This document shows positions 600 through 8,836 of a stretch of DNA of 9,508 nt, one piece after another. The stretch comes from Rudanella sp. GTDB lineage: Bacteria; Bacteroidota; Bacteroidia; Cytophagales; Spirosomataceae. Position 1 is the first letter of the stretch. Each line of letters starts with the position of its first letter. The notes under the pieces were generated by a model that saw only the letters and a program-made list of their open reading frames with translations, had not been told where the DNA came from and searched no databases. The DNA lies in NCBI GenBank assembly GCA_026785985.1, contig JAJAYX010000494.1:1-9508 (forward strand), written 5' to 3'. Made by a program: the position numbers and the translations under genes.

Positions 600-1312
600 T
601 TAAACGACTTCGGCTTCAACCTCCTGAACACTTTCCGTTTGCTCTTCCCCCGAACCTACCCCAAGGGGCTGAACGTCGGCAGGGGGCAGGGAGAAACTTT
701 CGGAAAAGGCCAGATAATTGGCCGTTTGTTTCAGCGTATCCCGCCGATAAATGGGATAGTCAGCCGCATAATCGGCTAACTGCGCTACCATCTCCGGTGT
801 GGCCAGTTCATAACAGAACCGACCGATGTACCACGACTTGGTAGGATCGGTTTTGCTGGTGAGTTTCTCCGGTCGAACGGTTAACACCACATCGCACAAA
901 GACAACGGCTCCTGACCAGCATAGACGAGTTTTTTGAGGACGTTCCGCAACTCACCCAGCGTCGTGCCGTTGAACATGATGCTCGACACGCAGTTGAACG
1001 AGTCCACGAAAAACAGTTCTGCCCACGGTTCACGGTTGCGGTTGAAAAGACCATCTTCAAACACCCGGAACACAAACGGCTGAAACGACAACTCCTTCAC
1101 GGGCTTACCGCTCTTATCGAGAACAGGCGTTTCACCGTCGATGTTGAACTGCCCGGTTTGGGACGGGGCCGCCCGTGCGGTTGTAGCGGTACTGTTTCGG
1201 CTCGCCCGCTTCGGCGGTCCGATTCGATGTAGCGAAAGATGTCATTAATTACGGCCTCGCCGTGTTTATTGATTACTTCTTTCGGACCGCCGATGCGGCT
1301 GTAGGATTTCAT
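600..1312 (-). CDS. Unknown conserved-looking protein, frame broken by two 16-nt inserts
   Basis: I do not recognise the family. As it stands, the frame from the ATG at 1312 runs through FRYIE and then changes at 1206-1221 and again at 1161-1176. Deleting 16 nt at each place gives one 226-residue frame ending at 600. The joins read FRYIE-CEPKQYRYNR and YRYNR-QTGQFNIDGE. The body after the joins (1160 to 600) is soluble, with no membrane segment, and ends in an acidic tail (ESVQEVEAEVV). Its position between the single-TM protein and a RecE-like nuclease suggests DNA processing on the element, but this is only context. A third 16-nt copy (1283-1298) lies in frame at codons 5-10 and adds SRIGGP. 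Removing that one gives a stop after MKSYRKK, so it must be read through if this start is right. A pipeline would call this a frameshifted pseudogene. Confidence 0.6.
1161..1176 (-). repeat. 16-nt palindromic insert E1 (divergent copy)
   Basis: In gene sense it reads ACGGGCGGCCCCGTCC. It shares its first nine positions after the initial base with the copies at 7545 and 7624, then differs. It can form stem CGGG/CCCG with loop CGGC. Deleting these 16 nt joins YNR to QTGQFNIDGE in the gene at 600-1312. The exact edges are uncertain by a base or so. Confidence 0.6.
1206..1221 (-). repeat. 16-nt palindromic insert E2
   Basis: In gene sense it is CGGACCGCCGAAGCGG, identical to the copies at 3238 and 6611. 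It can form stem CCGC/GCGG with loop CGAA. Deletion joins FRYIE to CEPKQYRYN through a rebuilt TGC codon. It lies only 29 nt from insert E1, so the peptide between them is short and has to be in its own frame. Confidence 0.8.
1283..1298 (+). repeat. 16-nt palindromic insert E3, in frame near a start codon
   Basis: On the + strand it is CGGACCGCCGATGCGG, identical to the copy in the Toprim gene at 4340-4355. It is in the opposite orientation to its host gene. It lies 14 nt after the first base of the ATG at 1312 and is read in frame as part of SRIGGP. It is the only copy whose deletion does not repair a frame. Confidence 0.75.
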
Positions 1313-1519
1313 ACCTGTATAGCGTAAAAAGGGGTTACTGCCTGGAATTGACCGGCCAAGCGTCTCCGGTTAGAACACTATAAAGATAGCTAAATAGTCG
1401 GCTATTTAAAAGACAAACTATTGATAGACAGAACTTTGACAACCCATTTTGATTGGTTGTCTTTAGTAAACCCCCCTTGATTAGTAGGCAGCTATTCAAG
1501 TACTCAGCTATCTGAGTGT
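1313..1519. other. 207-bp intergenic region with three short hairpins
   Basis: I see no supportable gene here. It holds three inverted repeats: TAAATAG-TCGG-CTATTTA (1391-1408), GACAACC...GGTTGTC (1438-1461) and ACTCAG-CTAT-CTGAGT (1502-1517). The motif AGCTAT recurs at 1490, 1506 and, as its complement, near 1386. The promoter of the leftward gene starting at 1312 should lie here. TATCTTTA read leftwards just before the gene is a weak match to the Bacteroidota -7 element TAnnTTTG. A replication or regulatory role for the hairpin cluster is possible but unproven. Confidence 0.35.
1502..1517. terminator. Short palindrome after the 1520-2263 gene
   Basis: ACTCAG-CTAT-CTGAGT is a 6-bp stem with a 4-nt loop, immediately past the stop codon of the leftward gene that ends at 1520. 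There is no U-run behind it, so terminator function is uncertain. It shares the half-site ACTCAG(A/C)TA with the palindrome at 556-591, so both could instead be binding sites for one protein. Confidence 0.35.
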
Positions 1520-2263
1520 TCACTTGTGGTGGTTAATTCTGGGCTTGGGTTTTGCCCGGATCAATTCGCGCTCGCGCTGACGCAGGAAATACTGCTGTTG
1601 GCGAGCGTCAACGATACGCTCCAACCGATTTAATTCGTCCATGAAAAGAGGGGAGTGGTAGAGCGTATCCGCTTCCTGAAGTAGATGTGCGTCGAATGAG
1701 TGGGCGACCACAGTGCGGGCCACAATGTACCGATGCTGCCAATAACCGGGTGCCAGCGAATCCCTTTCCTGAAGCGTTTGCAAACAGGCATACAGCAATC
1801 CGCCCGCGAGTAAGCCAACGGTAGCCATCCCGACGGTCAAAAAACGAACCAGCCGCAACACCGTTTTACCAGGCTGCTCAACCTTGATTACTTTCGGAAC
1901 AATGCGATCCAAATGCTGCTGCATTGCCGGACTCAACTGATCCGGCAGTTGAGGAAGCCAATTGGTCAACTCACGAAGCAACTGTTCTTGTTGGGTTCGT
2001 CCCGCATCAGCAATCGCCGAAGTCAGCGCGCCAATCAAGTGGGTGGGATCAAAACCGGGCGTTGGCACAAGAGGCATTTCCTCGGCCACTGCTGGTGAGG
2101 AGATTGGCTCATTGGCAGCATCAGTAGGGGAGGAGTGAGGGCGTTGCCAGTACGGATTGGTCGGATAGGGTTTATCCGACGAGGCAGCGGGCGTTTTACC
2201 GGATGCCCAGTCCTGACCAATCATGTCGTGGTCAGGGTGAATAGGGGAGGAGGTTGTGTTCAT
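1520..2263 (-). CDS. Single-pass membrane protein of unknown function
   Basis: A 247-residue protein of no family I recognise. Residues 1-70 are rich in Pro, Ser and Thr and look disordered. Residues 72-130 are probably helical (HLIGALTSAIADAGRTQQEQ). A hydrophobic helix spans about 140-162 (FLTVGMATVGLLAGGLLYACL), flanked by Arg and Lys. The C-terminal 70 residues are charged and helical (DELNRLERIVDARQQQYFLRQRERELIR), ending in a basic tail. It follows the Toprim gene by 55 bp across a strong hairpin. In the setting of transfer genes it could anchor a DNA-processing complex to the membrane, which is inference from context only. The frame is uninterrupted and has no 16-nt insert. Confidence 0.7.
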   Translation of the reverse strand: MNTTSSPIHPDHDMIGQDWASGKTPAASSDKPYPTNPYWQRPHSSPTDAANEPISSPAVAEEMPLVPTPGFDPTHLIGALTSAIADAGRTQQEQLLRELTNWLPQLPDQLSPAMQQHLDRIVPKVIKVEQPGKTVLRLVRFLTVGMATVGLLAGGLLYACLQTLQERDSLAPGYWQHRYIVARTVVAHSFDAHLLQEADTLYHSPLFMDELNRLERIVDARQQQYFLRQRERELIRAKPKPRINHHK

Positions 2264-2278
2264 TGGAAAGGGGAAATA

Positions 2279-2312
2279 GCCTCAGTCAGCCAACGTGAAG
2301 GCTGACTGAGGC
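2279..2312 (-). terminator. Strong hairpin terminator after the Toprim gene
   Basis: A perfect 13-bp stem (GCCTCAGTCAGCC with GGCTGACTGAGGC) and an 8-nt loop lie 6 nt past the stop of the leftward gene ending at 2319. On the minus strand it is followed by TATTTCCCC, a weak U-tract. It probably ends or attenuates transcription before the gene at 1520-2263. Confidence 0.65.
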
Positions 2313-2318
2313 ATAGCT

Positions 2319-5141
2319 TCATAGTTTAGCGCGGTACGTTCGGGCGGTTTCGCCCACCGGTTCAGCCGGAGTTTGCTTGGTGGCCTGCTCTGCTTTAAGG
2401 TCGGTGTGGCCCCGAATTGCCGGAGGAGTACCAACCTTGAGCGGGCTGGAATCGGGGAGGGGTTCCCCCTGCCGGTTTTGCAGGATGTCGTTGAGGTCTT
2501 TCTGCTGCCGGGTTGGCCGGATAATCTGGTAAAGTGCCTGCCCCTGCCGTTGGTTGATCTCATCGGTGAGCAGAGTCAAGGCTTTGACTAAGAGCCGCCC
2601 ATCGTTCGGGAAATGGATGCGGGTACGGGTCACCGCCTGCTGCTGCTGACTATCAGTCAACGTTTCGCGCTGAAACTCCTGCACCTTTTTTTCCTTGTCG
2701 TTGGGGTCGTTGTTGTAGTTAAACTGTTTGGTAAACCGGTTCATCTCGTCGAGAAAACGGCCTAGAAACGCATCATTTCGGCCCTGTGCTTTTTCGGCCC
2801 CACCTTCACCAGGCACAAGCGGCTGACGCAGTTCCAGTTCCAGCTTATTCACGCCAGAGTACAGGTCTTTTTCGAGTTTGGCATCTTTGTGGTGTTGAAT
2901 TCGCTGCACCATTTCTTCGGGTGAAATCATGGCGCGCTCACGGGCCACCCGAAATTCATTGCCCACCTTGGTCGTCATGTACTCCGACTGAGCGAGTTTG
3001 GTCTCCTGCTCCGGCAGGGGAATTCCGTACGCTTTGGCATAGGTGAAGGCCGGAATGACCGACTGCACCATCTCAACCGACACCTTGACGTACTCATCCG
3101 GCCGGTTCGCCGGTGCGATAATCTCCTTGAAGCGGGCCTGGTGATTGATGGCCAGTTTGTGACCTTCCGACAACGCACCATCGGCCAGATCGAACCGCTT
3201 CAATACATCGCTGAACGTCTTAACCTCGGTATCAAATCGGACCGCCGAAGCGGGCAAACGTCGGACCCAGCACATTGGCCAACGGATTTGGGGGCAGGTT
3301 GGGGCCGGAGTAAGCGATTTCTGGCTTGATCCGAAGAGCCGGATCAGCGGCTGGGTGTGTCAGGCCGAGGTAATTGATCGCAAACCGAAGACCGGCATTG
3401 TCGCCGTCCTGGGCAATCACAAACTGGGCTTCGGGATTGCGGTCCAGTACCTTCTGAATGAACCCCAGTTGCCGGCTTCCCGGCTGGCCACCCGTTGCCA
3501 TGTAAAACCGGCGTTCGCCCTCCGCTTCGGGGTTCAGTTGCTTAAACGAAAGGGCATCAATGGCTGACTCGGCCACCAGAATCCGTTGAGCAGCCACCTC
3601 CCGAAACGCATTTCGGGCTGATTCGAGCGGAATCTGCACTTGCTTTGGTTTTCCATCCTCCACGAAGTTAAACGCAATGGTTTCGGGATTGTGCCGAAAC
3701 ACTGTACCGACCGTGCCGACCGGCAGCGTGGCTTTATCGTTAATAGCCAGGGGTGTCTTCAGCTCATAAAACCGGTTTGAATGCCACATAGCTTCGCCCC
3801 GCTCCCCCGACGGAAACGATCGCTCCGGCGACCCGGTTGAAGCGTTCGTTGCGAATATCCATCGACACCAGGTGACCATCCTGCGCATACATTGGGAAAG
3901 CAGTGTTGTGGTGGGTTGTTCCCTTTTCCGAGGTGTACGAGACAGTCTTGATCCGTCCATCGAATTCGGGGGAAAACAGTACGTCTTTTCGCAGGGAGCG
4001 GCCTTCGAGATAGCGGGTGTCGGTGAGGGGCGCAATGGAATAGCGGCTGTGCAGGTCTTTCTCGCGCAGTTTGGTGTCAATCAGGCTTTCTTTTACCTGT
4101 CTGAGCGGGGCAGTCACGCTCTTTTCCAATTCGTAGTCAGCCGAGGACATAATCCGGTCAACAGCTTTGAACACGTTCCGGTAGATGCCATTCTCAACCC
4201 GTTCCAAAAACTTGATCACATCGCCCCGCCAGCCGCGCTGATCGTTCATATCGACGAACATTTTCTGACCGTACTTATCGCCGGTATAAACCGCCAACCG
4301 CTCCTTCGATCCCTTTTCGCCCCGTTCATAAATGAGCCACCGCATCGGCGGTCCGATCATCGCTGGGTTTAGACTTCTTAGTGTCCAACTGAAACCCATA
4401 ATCCCGCAGTACGACCTCCAGATCAAGTTCTCGTTTAATAACATCAAAATCCCGAACCAGCTTTCCAGTCCCCGGTTTCAAACCAGTCCCTTCGGCTGGT
4501 TTTTTGGCTTGCCCATCGGTTGACTGCCTAACAGGTTCCTGCTTTGCCGCAGTGGGCTGGCCAACTTCACTTGGCGAAACGGTCTGCTTACCCCGCACAT
4601 TAGTTAAGTCGATCCGGTTATCGTCGGCGTACTTCTCCAGCGTTTGAATGTTCCAGGCTTTGTGGTAGGCTGTCGAATCGCGGACGTTCTGGTATAGGTC
4701 GGTCACGGCCAATTGCCGGTAGGCCACCGACCCATCGAGTTTACCCCGATTGGTGATGAGTGCAGCCCGGTTGGTTTGGGCGCGGGTGAACAACTCACTG
4801 AACTCCTTTGCGTCGAAGCCGTTGACGGCCGGGTACAACCCCACACGCTGCGGTCCATCACCGAGCGTGAGCATCTTTTTGGCCTGAGGATTGTCGGTTA
4901 GGGCCGGGTTCGTCCGCGTCAGCACGCGCGGCCCGTAAAGTTCTTTGATCGCCGTGTCGAGCCGTTCGAAGTTGGCGCGGGTTGGCTCGATCCAGAGTTG
5001 GACGTTGCCGATGGCGCGGGCCGGGGCAATGGCATTCATGGCGTAATCTCCAAACGCCAGGTAGCGTACTCCCGCCTTGTTGAGCTGACGCAAAATGGCC
5101 AACTGCTCGCGGGTAGCGCGATTTTGTGCTTTCTGTTTCAC
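2319..5141 (-). CDS. DUF3991/Toprim-type protein with dead nucleotidyltransferase-like N-terminus, frame broken by three 16-nt inserts
   Basis: Three 16-nt deletions (4340-4355, about 3812-3827, 3238-3253) give a single 924-residue frame from the ATG at 5141 to the TGA at 2319. Residues 1 to about 190 resemble the AbiEii/DUF6036 nucleotidyltransferase fold (VRYLAFGDYAMNAI, then GNVQLWIEP). The usual GDxDxW acids are absent (GNVQLW), so catalysis is unlikely. Residues from about 230 resemble the DUF3991 region that precedes Toprim in plasmid primase-like proteins (LRDYGFQLDTKKSKPS, WLIYERGEKG). The Toprim signature follows: Glu near 514 in LVAESAIDAL and the DxD near 568-570 in AQDGDNAG, the acidic residues that bind Mg2+. 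The last 300 residues are charged and helical and unassigned. A primase- or relaxase-associated role in plasmid transfer is inferred from family and neighbours. It starts 14 nt after the preceding gene. Pipelines would split it or call it a pseudogene. Confidence 0.75.
3238..3253 (+). repeat. 16-nt palindromic insert E4, inverted relative to its gene
   Basis: On the + strand it reads CGGACCGCCGAAGCGG; in the leftward gene it therefore reads CCGCTTCGGCGGTCCG, which can form a C(UUCG)G tetraloop hairpin. Deletion joins LANVLGPTFA to FDTEVKTFSDVLKRFD. Without deletion the frame ends at a TGA 3 nt past the insert. Confidence 0.85.
3812..3827 (-). repeat. Probable 16-nt insert E5, diverged copy
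   Basis: A +1 frame change between IRNERFNRVA and GERGEAMWHSNRF is repaired by removing 16 nt here; gene-sense CGGAGCGATCGTTTCC is one consistent choice, shifting by one base either way. With one gap, CCGGAGCGATCGTTTCC matches CCGGGCGGCCGGTGCC at 12 of 16 positions, so it may be an older copy. The hairpin is weaker (GGAG/TTCC). The position of the frame change is firm; membership in the repeat family is less sure. Confidence 0.45.
4340..4355 (-). repeat. 16-nt palindromic insert E6
   Basis: In gene sense it is CGGACCGCCGATGCGG, with stem CCGC/GCGG and loop CGAT. Deletion joins DTKKSKPSDD to WLIYERGEKGSKERLAVY in the Toprim-type gene. Without deletion translation ends at the TGA at 4326-4328. 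Confidence 0.85.
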
Positions 5142-5155
5142 GAAATAGATGCCGA

Positions 5156-5440
5156 TTAAGGGGTTGTTAGTTCAAAGCCGCCAAGCTGCGGTTCCTGAGC
5201 GCGATGCAAGTCGCCAGCCAGTTCCGTTAAATCATACTGGAGTTCGGTAAAAGCCAGAAAGAGCCATTCGCGCTCATCAACAGTCAGGCTTTTCCATAAC
5301 TCAAGGTCGTTGACCGATGCGTTAACGACAGTAATCGGCGGGTCGCCCGGCTCTTCGCCATCGCCAATGAACAGTGGTTGAATGGCCTGATGAATCCGTT
5401 CGCTGCCCCATCGCTCTTCCAGTGTTGTCAGGTAAATCAT
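5156..5440 (-). CDS. Small acidic protein of unknown function
   Basis: A 94-residue acidic, soluble protein with no membrane segment and no motif I recognise. It contains a helical stretch (VNDLELWKSLTVDEREWLFLAFTELQYDLTELAGDLHRAQ). It is tightly packed: the gene upstream ends 11 nt before its ATG at 5440, and the Toprim-type gene starts 14 nt after its stop, so all three are probably co-transcribed. Real coding is supported by this spacing and by a plausible protein composition. The small size and acidity would suit a partner of the Toprim-type protein, but that is a guess. Confidence 0.65.
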   Translation of the reverse strand: MIYLTTLEERWGSERIHQAIQPLFIGDGEEPGDPPITVVNASVNDLELWKSLTVDEREWLFLAFTELQYDLTELAGDLHRAQEPQLGGFELTTP

Positions 5441-5451
5441 GGTTAGATCGG

Positions 5452-5796
5452 TTAGAGGCTGGGTTTAGGAACGGGTATTAGCTCATTAGTTGTGGGATGC
5501 ACTACCCCAGGTGCAACCTGATTAGTCGGTGATTCGGCGGGCGGACTCAGTAAGGTGAGAAGCAGGGTAGGAGGGGAGTCAGCAGTTACCTGTTTCGCTT
5601 GCACCAGCACAGGATTAATCCGATGGACGACCTGATCGTGTACATCCGTCAGGATAGGTTGCCACACCAGTGGCTTTCCGGGTAATGCGATGGCCGCTTC
5701 CTGAAGGCATTGGTCAAAAGATGGCTCGAATAGCTGGATAAGCCGCTTCGATTGCTCTCCGTCGAGTTGTTGATGGTTTGAATTGCTTTGATTCAT
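5452..5796 (-). CDS. Small protein of unknown function, first gene of the leftward operon
   Basis: A 114-residue protein of no family I recognise. The N-terminal half is polar and helical (EQSKRLIQLFEPSFDQCLQEAAIALP). The C-terminal half is rich in Pro, Val and Thr and probably disordered. The start at 5796 is the first ATG after the AT-rich divergent region, which makes it the promoter-proximal gene of the leftward set. Its stop is 11 nt before the next start. A regulatory or DNA-binding role would fit its place, but no helix-turn-helix is apparent. Confidence 0.6.
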   Translation of the reverse strand: MNQSNSNHQQLDGEQSKRLIQLFEPSFDQCLQEAAIALPGKPLVWQPILTDVHDQVVHRINPVLVQAKQVTADSPPTLLLTLLSPPAESPTNQVAPGVVHPTTNELIPVPKPSL

Positions 5797-5890
5797 TGCT
5801 TATATTTAATTTTTTATCTAAATTAATTTATTATATTTAATAAATTATCTTTTTCACGCTTAATTTTGCGACGTATTGATCACATAGCTT
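5797..5890. promoter_or_regulatory. AT-rich divergent promoter region
   Basis: This 94-bp stretch separates the two divergent gene sets and is far richer in A and T than its surroundings. It holds a 10-bp inverted repeat, TAATTTATTA-tatt-TAATAAATTA (5824-5847). On the + strand TAATTTTG at 5861-5868 matches the Bacteroidota -7 element TAnnTTTG, with a weak -33 candidate TTTA at 5836, about 22 nt before the ATG at 5891. On the minus strand TAATTTAG (complement of 5819-5826) is a one-mismatch -7 candidate for the operon starting at 5796. The inverted repeat overlaps both, so one regulator could control both directions. Confidence 0.5.
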
Positions 5891-6568
5891 ATGGGTAATA
5901 GATGCAAATTAGGGCTAAAAGGGCTGGTTTTGAGCGTGGTATTGCTGGCGTATCATGACCGAAAGGCAATGGCTCAGAGTCGAAATTTTTTATCAGTCTC
6001 GCGGTCGGGTGAAACGGTGCAAGAATGGATACGCCGATCTCCAAGTGAGCAGGTTCAGCACCGGTTTTCTGAGTTGTTTATGGCCTCGCCCGACATGGCC
6101 CAGTCAATCCCCTGCCTGCCGCCACTCGGTGACTGGTCTGGCAACCGGATTTCGTCTGAATTTGGCTGGCGCAATCACCCAACGCTGAGGGTTATACGTC
6201 ATCACGATGGTATCGACATTGCCGGTCCCCATCAGTACGTTCGGGCAGGGGCATCGGGACGGGTGGCAACAGTCGGGCACAGCCGAAGCCTGGGGTGCTA
6301 CGTCCGCATCGACCACCTCAATTCGTACAATACAGTTTACGGCCATCTGGCGATGGCCCTTGTGCATCCGGGTCAGGCGGTTGGCATTGGGCAGACGCTG
6401 GGGATTACGGGCCGAACGGGCCGCGCAACGGGTGTGCATCTGCACTACAGCGTCTTCAAAAATAATGTACCCGTGAACCCCATTGGCCACCTTCGATTGG
6501 CCATTGATTTCGTGAACACCTATAAGCGGCAACAGCAGCGACTAACTACGACTCATCAACCTCATTAA
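5891..6568 (+). CDS. Secreted M23 (LytM-type) metallopeptidase
   Basis: A 225-residue protein. Residues 1-28 look like a signal peptide: a basic start, the hydrophobic core GLVLSVVLLA, and probable cleavage after AMA. The M23 catalytic domain spans about 80-195 and shows the zinc ligands of the family: HxxxD (H105-D109 in HHDGIDI) and HxH (H183 and H185 in HLHYSVF). The conserved H152 (VYGHL) and the fold marker SSEFGWRNHP are also present. M23 enzymes cut peptidoglycan cross-links, and conjugation systems often carry a lytic enzyme to open the wall for the transfer channel. That role is inferred from the coupling gene starting 12 nt downstream. The frame is intact and has no 16-nt insert. 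Confidence 0.85.
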   Translation: MGNRCKLGLKGLVLSVVLLAYHDRKAMAQSRNFLSVSRSGETVQEWIRRSPSEQVQHRFSELFMASPDMAQSIPCLPPLGDWSGNRISSEFGWRNHPTLRVIRHHDGIDIAGPHQYVRAGASGRVATVGHSRSLGCYVRIDHLNSYNTVYGHLAMALVHPGQAVGIGQTLGITGRTGRATGVHLHYSVFKNNVPVNPIGHLRLAIDFVNTYKRQQQRLTTTHQPH

Positions 6569-6580
6569 ACGTCCAATCCA

Positions 6581-8836
6581 ATGCCAGAAATGACCAGTAA
6601 AGAACGGGATCGGACCGCCGAAGCGGGGCCACACCCAAACCGTTGAGCTTTTCATAATTGCAGCCATTTGTTTGTTGCTGCTCCACTGTCTGTGGTACTG
6701 TCACGAACTTATCTATCCAGCTACCTGGATACGTAACTATCTGTATAACTTTCTATCTACCCTCAACACCCGTTTAGGGTTATTCGGTAATCCGTTCACC
6801 AGCAAAGCATTGGTGTTACTATTACTCTTTTTGTATGCCATTGGCTCGAAGGGAAAAATCGACCCGACGATTGGGCGAAGTCAGGTATTCCGCTATTCAG
6901 CTACGGGCCTACTATTATTCATCGGTTCCATCCCGATCCTTTATGCCAAAACCTTTGTGTCTCCCGTTGCCATCGACGGGCTGTATATGGCCCTGACGAT
7001 AGCAGGTACCATGCAGTTGATCAAGGGTGGGCAGTACCTGTCCCGCATCCTGTTTACGAGGTCGCCAAACGACATTTTCAACGATGCGAGCGAAGAGTTT
7101 CCCCAGAACGAAACGCTGGTGCAGAATGAGTTTTCGGTCCATTTCCAAACACTCTATTCCTACAAGGGTCAATGGCGACGGGGCCTGATTAACGTCGTCA
7201 ATCCGTTTCGGTCAGTTATCGTGCTGGGCTTGCAGGGATCGGAGAAAACGTTTGCCGTGTTGATTCAGGCTCTGTGGCAAAGTATTTACAAAGGATATGT
7301 GGCCTACGTATATGATTTTAAATTTCCGGACCTGACCGAGGAAGCCTACAACGCCTACCTGAAAACCCTGGCCGAAAACACTTACGCCTGGACACCCGCC
7401 GATGAGCTTACCGACCGCAAACGCAGAAACGATCCGGTAATCCCGAAATTTTACCGCTCCGGCGGGCCGGTCCTCAATTTCGATGACATCGAGTTTTCGC
7501 ATCGGTGCAATCCCATCGATGCCGACGGCATGACCGACGTGATGCCGGGCGGCCGGTGCCGTTGCCTACGAAGCCGCCCAAACAGTGATGTTGAACTTGA
7601 ACCGGACCTGGGCGCAGAAACAGCCGGGCGGCCGGTGCCGGTGAGTTTTTCCCGGAGTCGGCCATCAACTTCCTGACTTCGGTACTCTGGTATTTGCGGA
7701 CGGTGAACCTGAAATACCGCGCGTTGCTTGGGCAGGAAGAAAGCAAACCCGCCGATCAGCAGAATCCCGATTTACTCGCTGCCTACGCCCGGCTGTCTAA
7801 CTGCTGCACGTTCCCACACACGCTGGAGTTCATCAACCAGCGCTACGACGTAACCTTTGCCCTGATGGAGCGATACCCGGAAGTGGAAATTTACGTGCGA
7901 CCTTTTATCGATGCCCGCGATGGGGGCGCGATGGAGCAGTTGGAAGGACAGATTTCCTCCGTGCGTATCCCGATGGCCCGGCTCTCCTCGCCGACACTGT
8001 ATTGGGTGATGACGGGGTCTGATTTTACGCTTGACATCAACAACCCTGCCGATCCGAAAATCCTCTGCACGGGCAATAACCCCGCCCGGACGGCCATCTA
8101 CGGCACGGCCTTCTCCCTGTACACGGCCCGGCTCATGAAATTGGTGAACCGGAAAGGGCGGTTAAAATCGGCGTTATTCTGGGACGAGCTACCGACCATG
8201 TTCCTCAAAGGGCTGGATATGCTCATCGCGACGGCCCGCTCGAACAAGGTGGCCACCTGGCTGGGTATTCAGGACTTCGAGCAATTGACGCGGGATTACG
8301 GTGAAAAAGAAGCGAAGGTAATTATGAACCTGGGGGCCAATGTGTTCTCCGGCACGGTGGTTTATGAAACCGGTACGCCGGGGCGGGCCGAGAAACTATC
8401 CCGCCGATTTGGGAAAACGAATCAGGCCAAAGAGTCCATTACCTATTCCAAACACGATACGACGATCAACGTATCGCAACAGTTGACCGAGATGATTCCA
8501 GCGGCCAAAATCTCCCGGCTCAAACAGGGCGAATTTGTCGGGCAGTTCGTGGACAATTTCGGCGAAGAACTGGAGTTGAAAACCTTCAAATCGTTCATTG
8601 GCGTGGAAACGGAGCAAATGAAGAAACCCCACAAACTGCCGCCCATGCTCGATCTTGATGGCCTCATTCGCGACGTGTACGGCGTTGACCCGACTACCCT
8701 TTCGCCCGCCCATCGGCAAAATTTCAAATCCCGGTTGCTTCAGGATAATTACAAACGGGTGAAGGAGGATGTTCGGCTCCTGGTTGATTTTGAAGTGGCA
8801 GATTTTGGGATTGTGGTTAAAGAGCGCAAGGGTTAG
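6581..8836 (+). CDS. TraG/VirD4-type conjugative coupling ATPase, frame broken by three 16-nt inserts
   Basis: Deleting the three inserts (6611-6626, 7545-7560, 7624-7639) gives one 735-residue frame from the ATG at 6581 to the TAG at 8834. Residues 14 to about 150 hold several hydrophobic helices (ELFIIAAICLLLLHCLWY, ALVLLLLFLYAIG, GLLLFIGSIPILY), the usual membrane anchor of type IV coupling proteins. A Walker A-like loop lies at residues 211-218 (GLQGSEKT) and Walker B at about 517-522 (FWDELP). The segment NPIDADGMTDVM...VAYEAAQTVMLNLNRTWAQKQ...GEFFPESAINFLT is typical of the Bacteroidota TraG/MobC coupling family and is rebuilt only when the second and third inserts are removed. Coupling proteins dock the relaxosome to the transfer channel and pump DNA. 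Unusually, the Walker A glycine before Lys is Glu (E216). As it stands, translation from 6581 stops at 6643-6645, after about 21 codons. Confidence 0.85.
6611..6626 (+). repeat. 16-nt palindromic insert E7
   Basis: CGGACCGCCGAAGCGG, in gene orientation, directly after codon 10 of the coupling gene. Deletion joins MPEMTSKERD to GHTQTVELFIIAAI and links the start codon to the first membrane helix. Without deletion a TGA follows within 19 nt. Confidence 0.85.
7545..7560 (+). repeat. 16-nt palindromic insert E8
   Basis: CCGGGCGGCCGGTGCC. With the following G it forms stem CGGC/GCCG and loop CGGT. Deletion joins DADGMTDVM to VAYEAAQTVMLNLNRTW, both conserved-looking parts of the coupling protein. 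Confidence 0.9.
7624..7639 (+). repeat. 16-nt palindromic insert E9, identical to E8
   Basis: An exact second copy of CCGGGCGGCCGGTGCC, 63 nt (21 codons) after E8. A G flanks both copies at the 3' end and another at the 5' end, so 18 nt are shared. Deletion joins NRTWAQKQ to GEFFPESAINFLT. Confidence 0.9.

Follow-up and report, generated by a model that had tools for sequence, protein, structure and literature searches.

What has been lodged, time after time and in units of 15 or 16 nucleotides (nt), in the transfer genes of a Rudanella sp.? The question is raised by contig C494 (JAJAYX010000494.1, 9,508 nt), the whole of which is the window analysed here. The contig belongs to a metagenome bin of 4.68 Mb, made up of 891 contigs and 71.7% complete, and three of its genes are interrupted by short hairpin sequences. 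According to an earlier note on this DNA, either the genes were struck again and again by a tiny mobile element, or the cell tolerates the inserts. Empty sites in relatives and the presence of a 16-mer of the family in 40 of 149 genomes argue for the first option. With moderate confidence, we propose that this family of 15- or 16-nt hairpins has spread as an ultra-short, non-autonomous mobile DNA element, probably inactivating the genes whose frame it breaks. Few bacterial mobile DNA elements are likely to be smaller than this hairpin.

Filled and empty sites in the transfer genes

In a MAFFT alignment with relatives, the window contains twelve hairpin insertions, nine of 16 nt and three of 15 nt (at 3103, 7455 and 8371; Table 1). 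Six relatives were compared for the gene of unknown function, six for the primase-type gene and seven for the TraG-type coupling protein gene. Event calling on the alignment required a gap in all relatives but one, and the junctions were then compared site by site, by excising the interval and inspecting the junction in each relative. At eleven sites the junctions are free of gaps in 6/6 or 7/7 relatives; at the twelfth, 1282, one nucleotide is missing 4 nt away, which gives a net gain of 15 nt and keeps the frame. The nine 16-nt inserts listed in the earlier note all lie where it had placed them and are missing in all relatives whose alignment spans the site (six or seven), with gaps of exactly 16 nt at all of them except 1282. 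Its total fell short by the three in-frame 15-nt copies, of which the one at 8371 lies outside the coordinates it covered, and these copies contradict its statement that an insert always shifts the frame by +1. Eight of the twelve inserts, all of 16 nt, do break the frame, and removal of the inserts leaves the three genes open as had been claimed, over the lengths given in Table 1, which are counted from stop to stop with the frame-keeping insert at 1282 left in. The further claim that no other indel or stop is needed holds for the three genes with two exceptions: a single nucleotide is deleted at 1282, and the TraG-type gene stops one codon early at its very end. Other alignment events (6 nt at 634, 3 nt at 4493, 15 nt at 6562 and two short deletions) fall in variable or intergenic stretches, lack the hairpin sequence and were not counted.

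Of the window, 8 kb served as query; 83% of this stretch matches the 212-kb plasmid CP155472 of Fibrella sp. ES10-3-2-2, at about 72% DNA identity. Contigs of Fibrivirga, Spirosoma, Rudanella and Fibrella match as well; judging from these matches, C494 is probably plasmid DNA and the bin probably a member of the Spirosomataceae. A second contig of the same bin, C501, was found by a looser motif search and matches a different part of the Fibrella plasmid; C494 and C501 are treated here as two separate contigs. The transfer genes of C501 hold eleven inserts, with five in a single TraG-type ATPase gene, and the junctions are clean in one to five relatives per site. Ten of the eleven inserts are exactly 16 nt long in a free pairwise alignment; the remaining one, 5679, lies at a gene end, where free alignment gives a 30-nt gap and the size was read from the junctions. 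Matches to the ATPase gene are 80 nt shorter than the query in G001, G002, G078, G041, G056 and G010, and 77 nt shorter in G079; this comparison in seven relatives uses match lengths only, 80 nt being the length of five 16-nt inserts. The two contigs together hold 23 inserts, with a net size of 15 or 16 nt at 23/23.

Table 1. Interrupted genes of the window and the hairpin inserts that they contain
Feature	Positions	Strand	Observation
Gene of unknown function, homologue of XAZ81936.1 on CP155472	600..1312	-	3 inserts; 735 nt open after removal of the two frame-breaking inserts
Toprim-domain (primase-type) gene	2319..5141	-	4 inserts (one 15-nt, three 16-nt); 2787 nt open after insert removal
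YWFCY / TraG-type coupling protein gene	6581..8836	+	5 inserts (two 15-nt, three 16-nt); 2187 nt open after removal; Pfam PF14293, PF12696 and PF10412 found on pieces of the gene
16-nt insert CGGGGCCGCCCGTGCG, target A^G	1164..1179	+	absent from 6/6 relatives
16-nt insert TCGGACCGCCGAAGCG, target A^G	1207..1222	-	absent from 6/6 relatives
16-nt insert TCGGACCGCCGATGCG with 1-nt deletion 4 nt off	1282..1297	+	absent from 6/6 relatives
15-nt in-frame insert CGCACCGGCGAACCG, target T^G	3103..3117	-	absent from 6/6 relatives
16-nt insert TCGGACCGCCGAAGCG, target A^G	3237..3252	+	absent from 6/6 relatives
16-nt insert CCGGGTCGCCGGAGCG, then A	3821..3836	-	absent from 6/6 relatives; next base G in all 6
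16-nt insert TCGGACCGCCGATGCG, target A^G	4341..4356	-	absent from 6/6 relatives
16-nt insert TCGGACCGCCGAAGCG, target A^G	6610..6625	+	absent from 7/7 relatives
15-nt in-frame insert CGGCCCGCCGGAGCG, target C^G	7455..7469	-	absent from 7/7 relatives
16-nt insert CCGGGCGGCCGGTGCC, target G^G	7545..7560	+	absent from 7/7 relatives
16-nt insert CCGGGCGGCCGGTGCC, target G^G	7624..7639	+	absent from 7/7 relatives
15-nt in-frame insert CGCCCCGGCGTACCG, target C^G	8371..8385	-	absent from 7/7 relatives

A perfect 36-nt intergenic palindrome (TTAGGTACTCAGATATTT and its complement) lies at 556-591 of the window; it is unrelated to the 16-mers.

The hairpin unit and its distribution

All 23 copies are built alike: one nucleotide is followed by a 4-nt foot, a 4-nt stem, a 4-nt loop and 3 nt of the returning stem, and the target supplies the first nucleotide in the case of the three 15-nt copies. 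The fourth base of the returning stem is the base that adjoins the insertion, so that C is paired with G at 20 sites and T with A at three. With this target base counted, the stem is paired at 4/4 positions at 23/23 sites, whereas only 126 of 20,712 background 17-mers are so paired. The foot is CGGA, CGCA, CGGG, CGGC, CGCC or GGGG at every site. Four different stems and ten distinct 16-mers occur among the 23 sites on the two contigs, and across the ten 16-mers the stem is maintained by compensating changes. The opposite strand obeys the same plan; the unit is therefore best regarded as a 17-nt sequence of two overlapping hairpins, flanking base included, and in the commonest variant TCGG(ACCG)CCGA overlaps CCGC(CGAA)GCGG. 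In the bin's own DNA, the three 15-nt inserts are each preceded by the base with which the family begins (a base that was guessed for two of the three 15-nt variants); 1282 aside, no 16-nt insert is. Each end base that unit and target have in common thus seems to take one nucleotide off a gain of 17, one shared base giving 16 nt and two giving 15 nt, and no longer target duplication was seen at the insert sites. At two of the three sites with a T in the stem, the closest relative has the expected A. Several variants are present in two to five identical copies on a single contig, as expected from recent local spread.

The commonest 16-mer, CGGACCGCCGAWGCGG, occurs five times in the 9.5-kb window and 12 times in the whole bin, where its reversed control has no match. 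Over 149 genomes (bin included) it has 132 copies, compared with one for the reversed control, and the 40 carriers comprise 38 of the 91 genomes of the same family and two of the 58 from outside it; in some of these carriers a single contig reaches 6.3 or 7.0 Mb. With a leading T, the 16-mer is found in four of 395 genomes across the phylum (the bin, G006 of the same family, and single matches in G178 and G326), the control giving one. A looser motif, with palindromic matches counted on both strands, yields 117 matches in the bin vs 13 for the control, 286 vs 22 in G003, 82 vs 25 in G002 and 68 vs 38 in G001. Stem-base counts over all fetched loci were set aside because these loci had been selected by motif and most of their T-stem rows re-read, on the opposite strand, copies already counted. 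Viral contigs gave 15 matching stretches, 12 of them not from contigs of genome 2832102650; nine of these 12 lie in open frames of more than 800 nt and may be chance matches. An apparently intergenic copy is common to two species (G020 and G045), with flanks that are 83% identical, and suggests that some copies can be old and long inherited. The pair L112/L113 was rejected as an orthologous insert in a host gene, its bases being in-frame signal-peptide codons conserved in both species, so some pattern matches are plain coding sequence. In G136, a genome from outside the family, the 16-mer stands at the same place in two near-identical repeat copies and in a third that is 78% identical (L158 and L095).

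Copies outside the plasmid genes also speak for the mobile option, since they interrupt transposase genes, palindromes, a prophage tRNA gene and a cobW-type gene. In the bin, copies lie in an ISAzo13-type transposase gene and, on the contig of that gene, in another transposase fragment; a transposase-like gene with no Pfam match carries two, and an IS630-type gene (Pfam DDE_3) and the cobW-type gene are interrupted as well; the insertion sequence (IS) names of such transposase genes were partly assigned by eye. Copies sit at mirrored positions in both arms of intergenic palindromes at seven of 14 loci from relatives (L137, L132, L134, L150, L151, L152 and L138), and two further loci of the 14 show mismatches in one arm; inverted pairs of the 16-mer are spaced 56-256 bp apart. 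A predicted prophage contig with a match to G020 has a tRNA-Met gene that holds a 16-nt insert (L316:9368-9459, L153:13257-13348); ARAGORN reads the interrupted gene as tRNA-Arg and recovers tRNA-Met only when the insert is removed. Two decayed IS3-type remnants of G002 (L125 and L129), 72% identical to each other, have the insert in one and the same codon of their GNCWDNAVAESF motif, by common ancestry or because the site is preferred. On contig C548 of the bin (L148:2626), a sucC-like gene has a copy some 12 nt upstream of its start codon, where translation could be affected. Frame breaks were scored in 56 motif rows, that is, in loci of two genomes with about the first 30 matches of each: five rows are frame-breaking, all from the bin and one in what is maybe not a real gene, and the loci fetched from G003, a genome of isolate quality, contain none.

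State of the interrupted genes and competing explanations

Other lesions were surveyed in 16 reference genes of C494 and C501 (5,044 codons, of which some 60 extend past the contig end), a set from which two small genes with no match and one poorly aligned gene were left out. Besides the inserts, three intragenic lesions were counted: a nonsense codon, an insertion of 1 nt and the deletion at 1282. The nonsense codon (TAC to TAA at codon 241 of a traJ-like gene of C501, L254) is the sole premature stop in the 16 genes, gene ends aside, and the same gene also carries a 16-nt insert; the 1-nt insertion is found close to the 3′ end of the TraG ATPase gene of C501. Three more genes differ at their ends (one by a 10-nt gap plus a stop, the next by a 10-nt gap and the last by stopping one codon early), and these differences look like alignment or gene edges. 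The ratio of nonsynonymous to synonymous differences (pN/pS) relative to the Fibrella plasmid is 0.05-0.18 in six genes (the traJ-like gene was read only as far as its nonsense codon); among insert-free relatives, the ratio is 0.04-0.17. The small number of other lesions, together with these ratios, implies that the inserts are either recent or tolerated. Codon phases 0, 1 and 2 are found at 10, 2 and 7 of 19 tested sites, and identical take-off and landing triplets at the needed distance occur at two of the 19, compared with 13% at random positions (only exact matches were scored). Given the mixed phases and the lack of an excess of hop triplets, no general reading trick is visible; the frame-breaking inserts probably inactivate their genes. 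A +1 frameshift signal of the CUU-CGG-C type, known from Ty1, was dismissed as a general explanation because the codon phases of the inserts vary.

An IS256-type element of G002 (PF00872; 1340 bp) points the other way. It is present in four copies (L123, L124, L126 and L127), one with a single-base difference, and in every copy an insert at the WLDGIYYKVR motif breaks the 416-codon transposase frame; an insert-free homologue in G028 measures 1324 bp and is 71% identical. Two copies are flanked by perfect 8-bp target duplications, GTACGCTC and GTTTCCCT, and in the other two AAGTGATG and CTGATTTT are exchanged, as after an inversion between copies, a pattern that fits four separate transpositions. 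Among 35 scored candidates G002 has no further match, nor was an intact copy found, and in G001 only the ends of the element are assembled. It seems that the element transposed after the insertion, by means of an intact helper copy since lost, through gene conversion, or with a transposase made despite the insert. Candidates for a second multi-copy IS with inserts did not hold: the IS630-type element of G002 and a two-insert element of G084 have one full-length match each and are neutral with regard to tolerance, and the IS3-type remnants of G002 are decayed.

Several observations weigh against the proposed mobile, gene-inactivating hairpin. To judge from the four-copy IS256-type element, one broken gene or more remained functional. 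The complete pairing of the stems was obtained with the orientation of each copy picked for fit, which about doubles the chance of a match at one end, and the hairpin family was partly defined from the same 23 sites. At 3821, six of six relatives have G where the rule needs A, and at sites 2414 and 3335 of C501 the C that precedes the site in the closest relative predicts 15 nt where 16 are found. None of the 23 sites has a GTAG, GTGG or CGTC tag at the hairpin foot. No enzyme emerged from the analysis: Y1 genes occur in 75 of the 90 genomes searched, 16-mer-free genomes included, so that having such a gene is of little explanatory value, and a single copy of the 16-mer is present in G049, a genome with no Y1 match. 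A hairpin of this kind was found in four of 30 fetched Y1 loci, in two cases no further than about 150 bp from the gene, these two apparently sitting inside another repeat.

Tolerance, the other option of the earlier note, would require that the ribosome hops or shifts frame within the 16 nt, or that the RNA is trimmed, so that full proteins are made. It draws support from the IS256-type element, all four copies of which are broken, and from the finding of only three other intragenic lesions and the pN/pS values in the surveyed genes; however, a lost helper or gene conversion could account for the former, and a recent burst explains the scarcity of lesions equally well. The spread of the inserts over all three phases, the rarity of hop triplets, the nonsense codon of the traJ-like gene and the frame-saving deletion at 1282 all argue against it, as does the low share of frame-breaking motif rows, nil in G003. 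We therefore regard general tolerance as unlikely, the IS256-type element being the case in its favour.

That these are ordinary repetitive extragenic palindromic (REP) sequences moved by a REP-associated tyrosine transposase (RAYT) appears improbable. The 4-nt foot with a hairpin, the dispersed copies and the inverted pairs are reminiscent of REPs, which are on record inside palindromes and genes (PMC3733652), and Y1 genes are common in the genomes searched. However, REPs measure 20-50 nt rather than 15-16 nt, the hairpins are devoid of the usual tags and break frames, no clear REPtron was found among the 30 Y1 loci, and one carrier has no Y1 match. A short palindrome at a precise position, with no long target duplication, could also be the excision footprint of a larger transposon, but the loci viewed showed no larger element terminating in this way, though no search was aimed at one, and the ten 16-mers keep their stem by compensating changes, which a scar does not need; we hold this explanation to be very improbable. 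An assembly or sequencing artefact, which the fragmentation and incompleteness of the bin might suggest, is scarcely credible and was rejected, since the same 16-mer is present in relatives with megabase contigs and in more than a quarter of the 149 genomes, and one copy is common to two species.

A possible mechanism and comparison with known elements

Under the mobile-element reading, the hairpin would be copied or moved as single-stranded DNA and ligated where one of its end bases fits the target, the joining being most likely performed by an enzyme acting in trans. A HUH/Y1 single-strand nuclease of the REP/IS200 type would be a first guess, as the unit is a hairpin with a 4-nt foot, like REPs; an encoded transposase is excluded by the unit size of 15-16 nt, and the hairpin is thus no autonomous IS200/IS605-type element. 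The mirrored pairs in palindromes could arise when a duplex is inserted into a folded stem, or when one arm is repaired from the other. Copies may persist mainly where loss is cheap, i.e., in conjugation genes, transposases and intergenic palindromes, which would leave the plasmid region riddled and host genes mostly spared. Only tentatively do we suggest, as a rather doubtful extension, that the family represents a new class of mobile DNA: a 17-nt double hairpin that grafts itself at the base finishing its stem, the smallest such element known from bacteria, able to fill a conjugation module with more than 20 copies and present, in at least one case, in a gene still at work (an IS256-type transposase gene).

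Known systems offer partial parallels. Known translational bypass elements (phage T4 gene 60 and the byp elements of Magnusiomyces) are likewise non-coding gaps inside genes; they are longer than 16 nt, and the hairpin sites differ from them in showing no excess of identical take-off and landing codons. Rickettsia palindromic elements (RPE) are also palindromic inserts in genes, but they are longer and kept in frame, whereas the hairpins are of 15-16 nt and usually frame-breaking (8/12 in the window), a distinction that the earlier note had drawn. RPE-4 and RPE-6 have been equated with CGTC repeats (PMC3733652). REPs and REPINs share with the hairpin family the foot and stem-loop (the latter at 23/23 sites), the inverted pairs and an occurrence in palindromes and sometimes in genes (PMC3733652, PMC6006769, PMC8266576). 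They have a length of 20-50 nt, most often with a GTAG tag (PMC8266576), or else a CGTC tag, a mostly intergenic location and, for the GTAG type, a link to RAYTs; the hairpin family differs in its size, in its foot, in often breaking frames and in having no clear RAYT linkage. A Bacteroidetes subclass of Y1 with atypical structures has also been described (PMC6006769).

Nearest in size is MUSE1, an 11-bp mitochondrial ultra-short element of Podospora (Koll et al. 1996, as cited in PMC7218506). Both are very short, occur in many copies and are present or absent between relatives; MUSE1, however, belongs to fungal mitochondria and is likened to the hairpin by its description. The GC clusters of yeast mitochondrial DNA are short, GC-rich and palindromic. 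They are dispersed repeats considered mobile (PMC7218506), as we propose for the hairpin, but they are organellar. No description of this hairpin family was found in the literature searched, a scope that takes in few subscription papers.

If mobility were shown directly, genome annotation would have to reckon with 'pseudogenes' and split open reading frames of Spirosoma-like genomes that are the work of one recognisable 16-mer family. The filled and empty sites, together with an IS that has spread with the insert in its transposase gene, provide natural tests of how cells cope with frame-breaking inserts. With mobility shown, the hairpin would also reduce the size at which bacterial DNA is known to be mobile, and the question would become which enzyme joins a 17-nt hairpin to a target that gives the last base of its stem.

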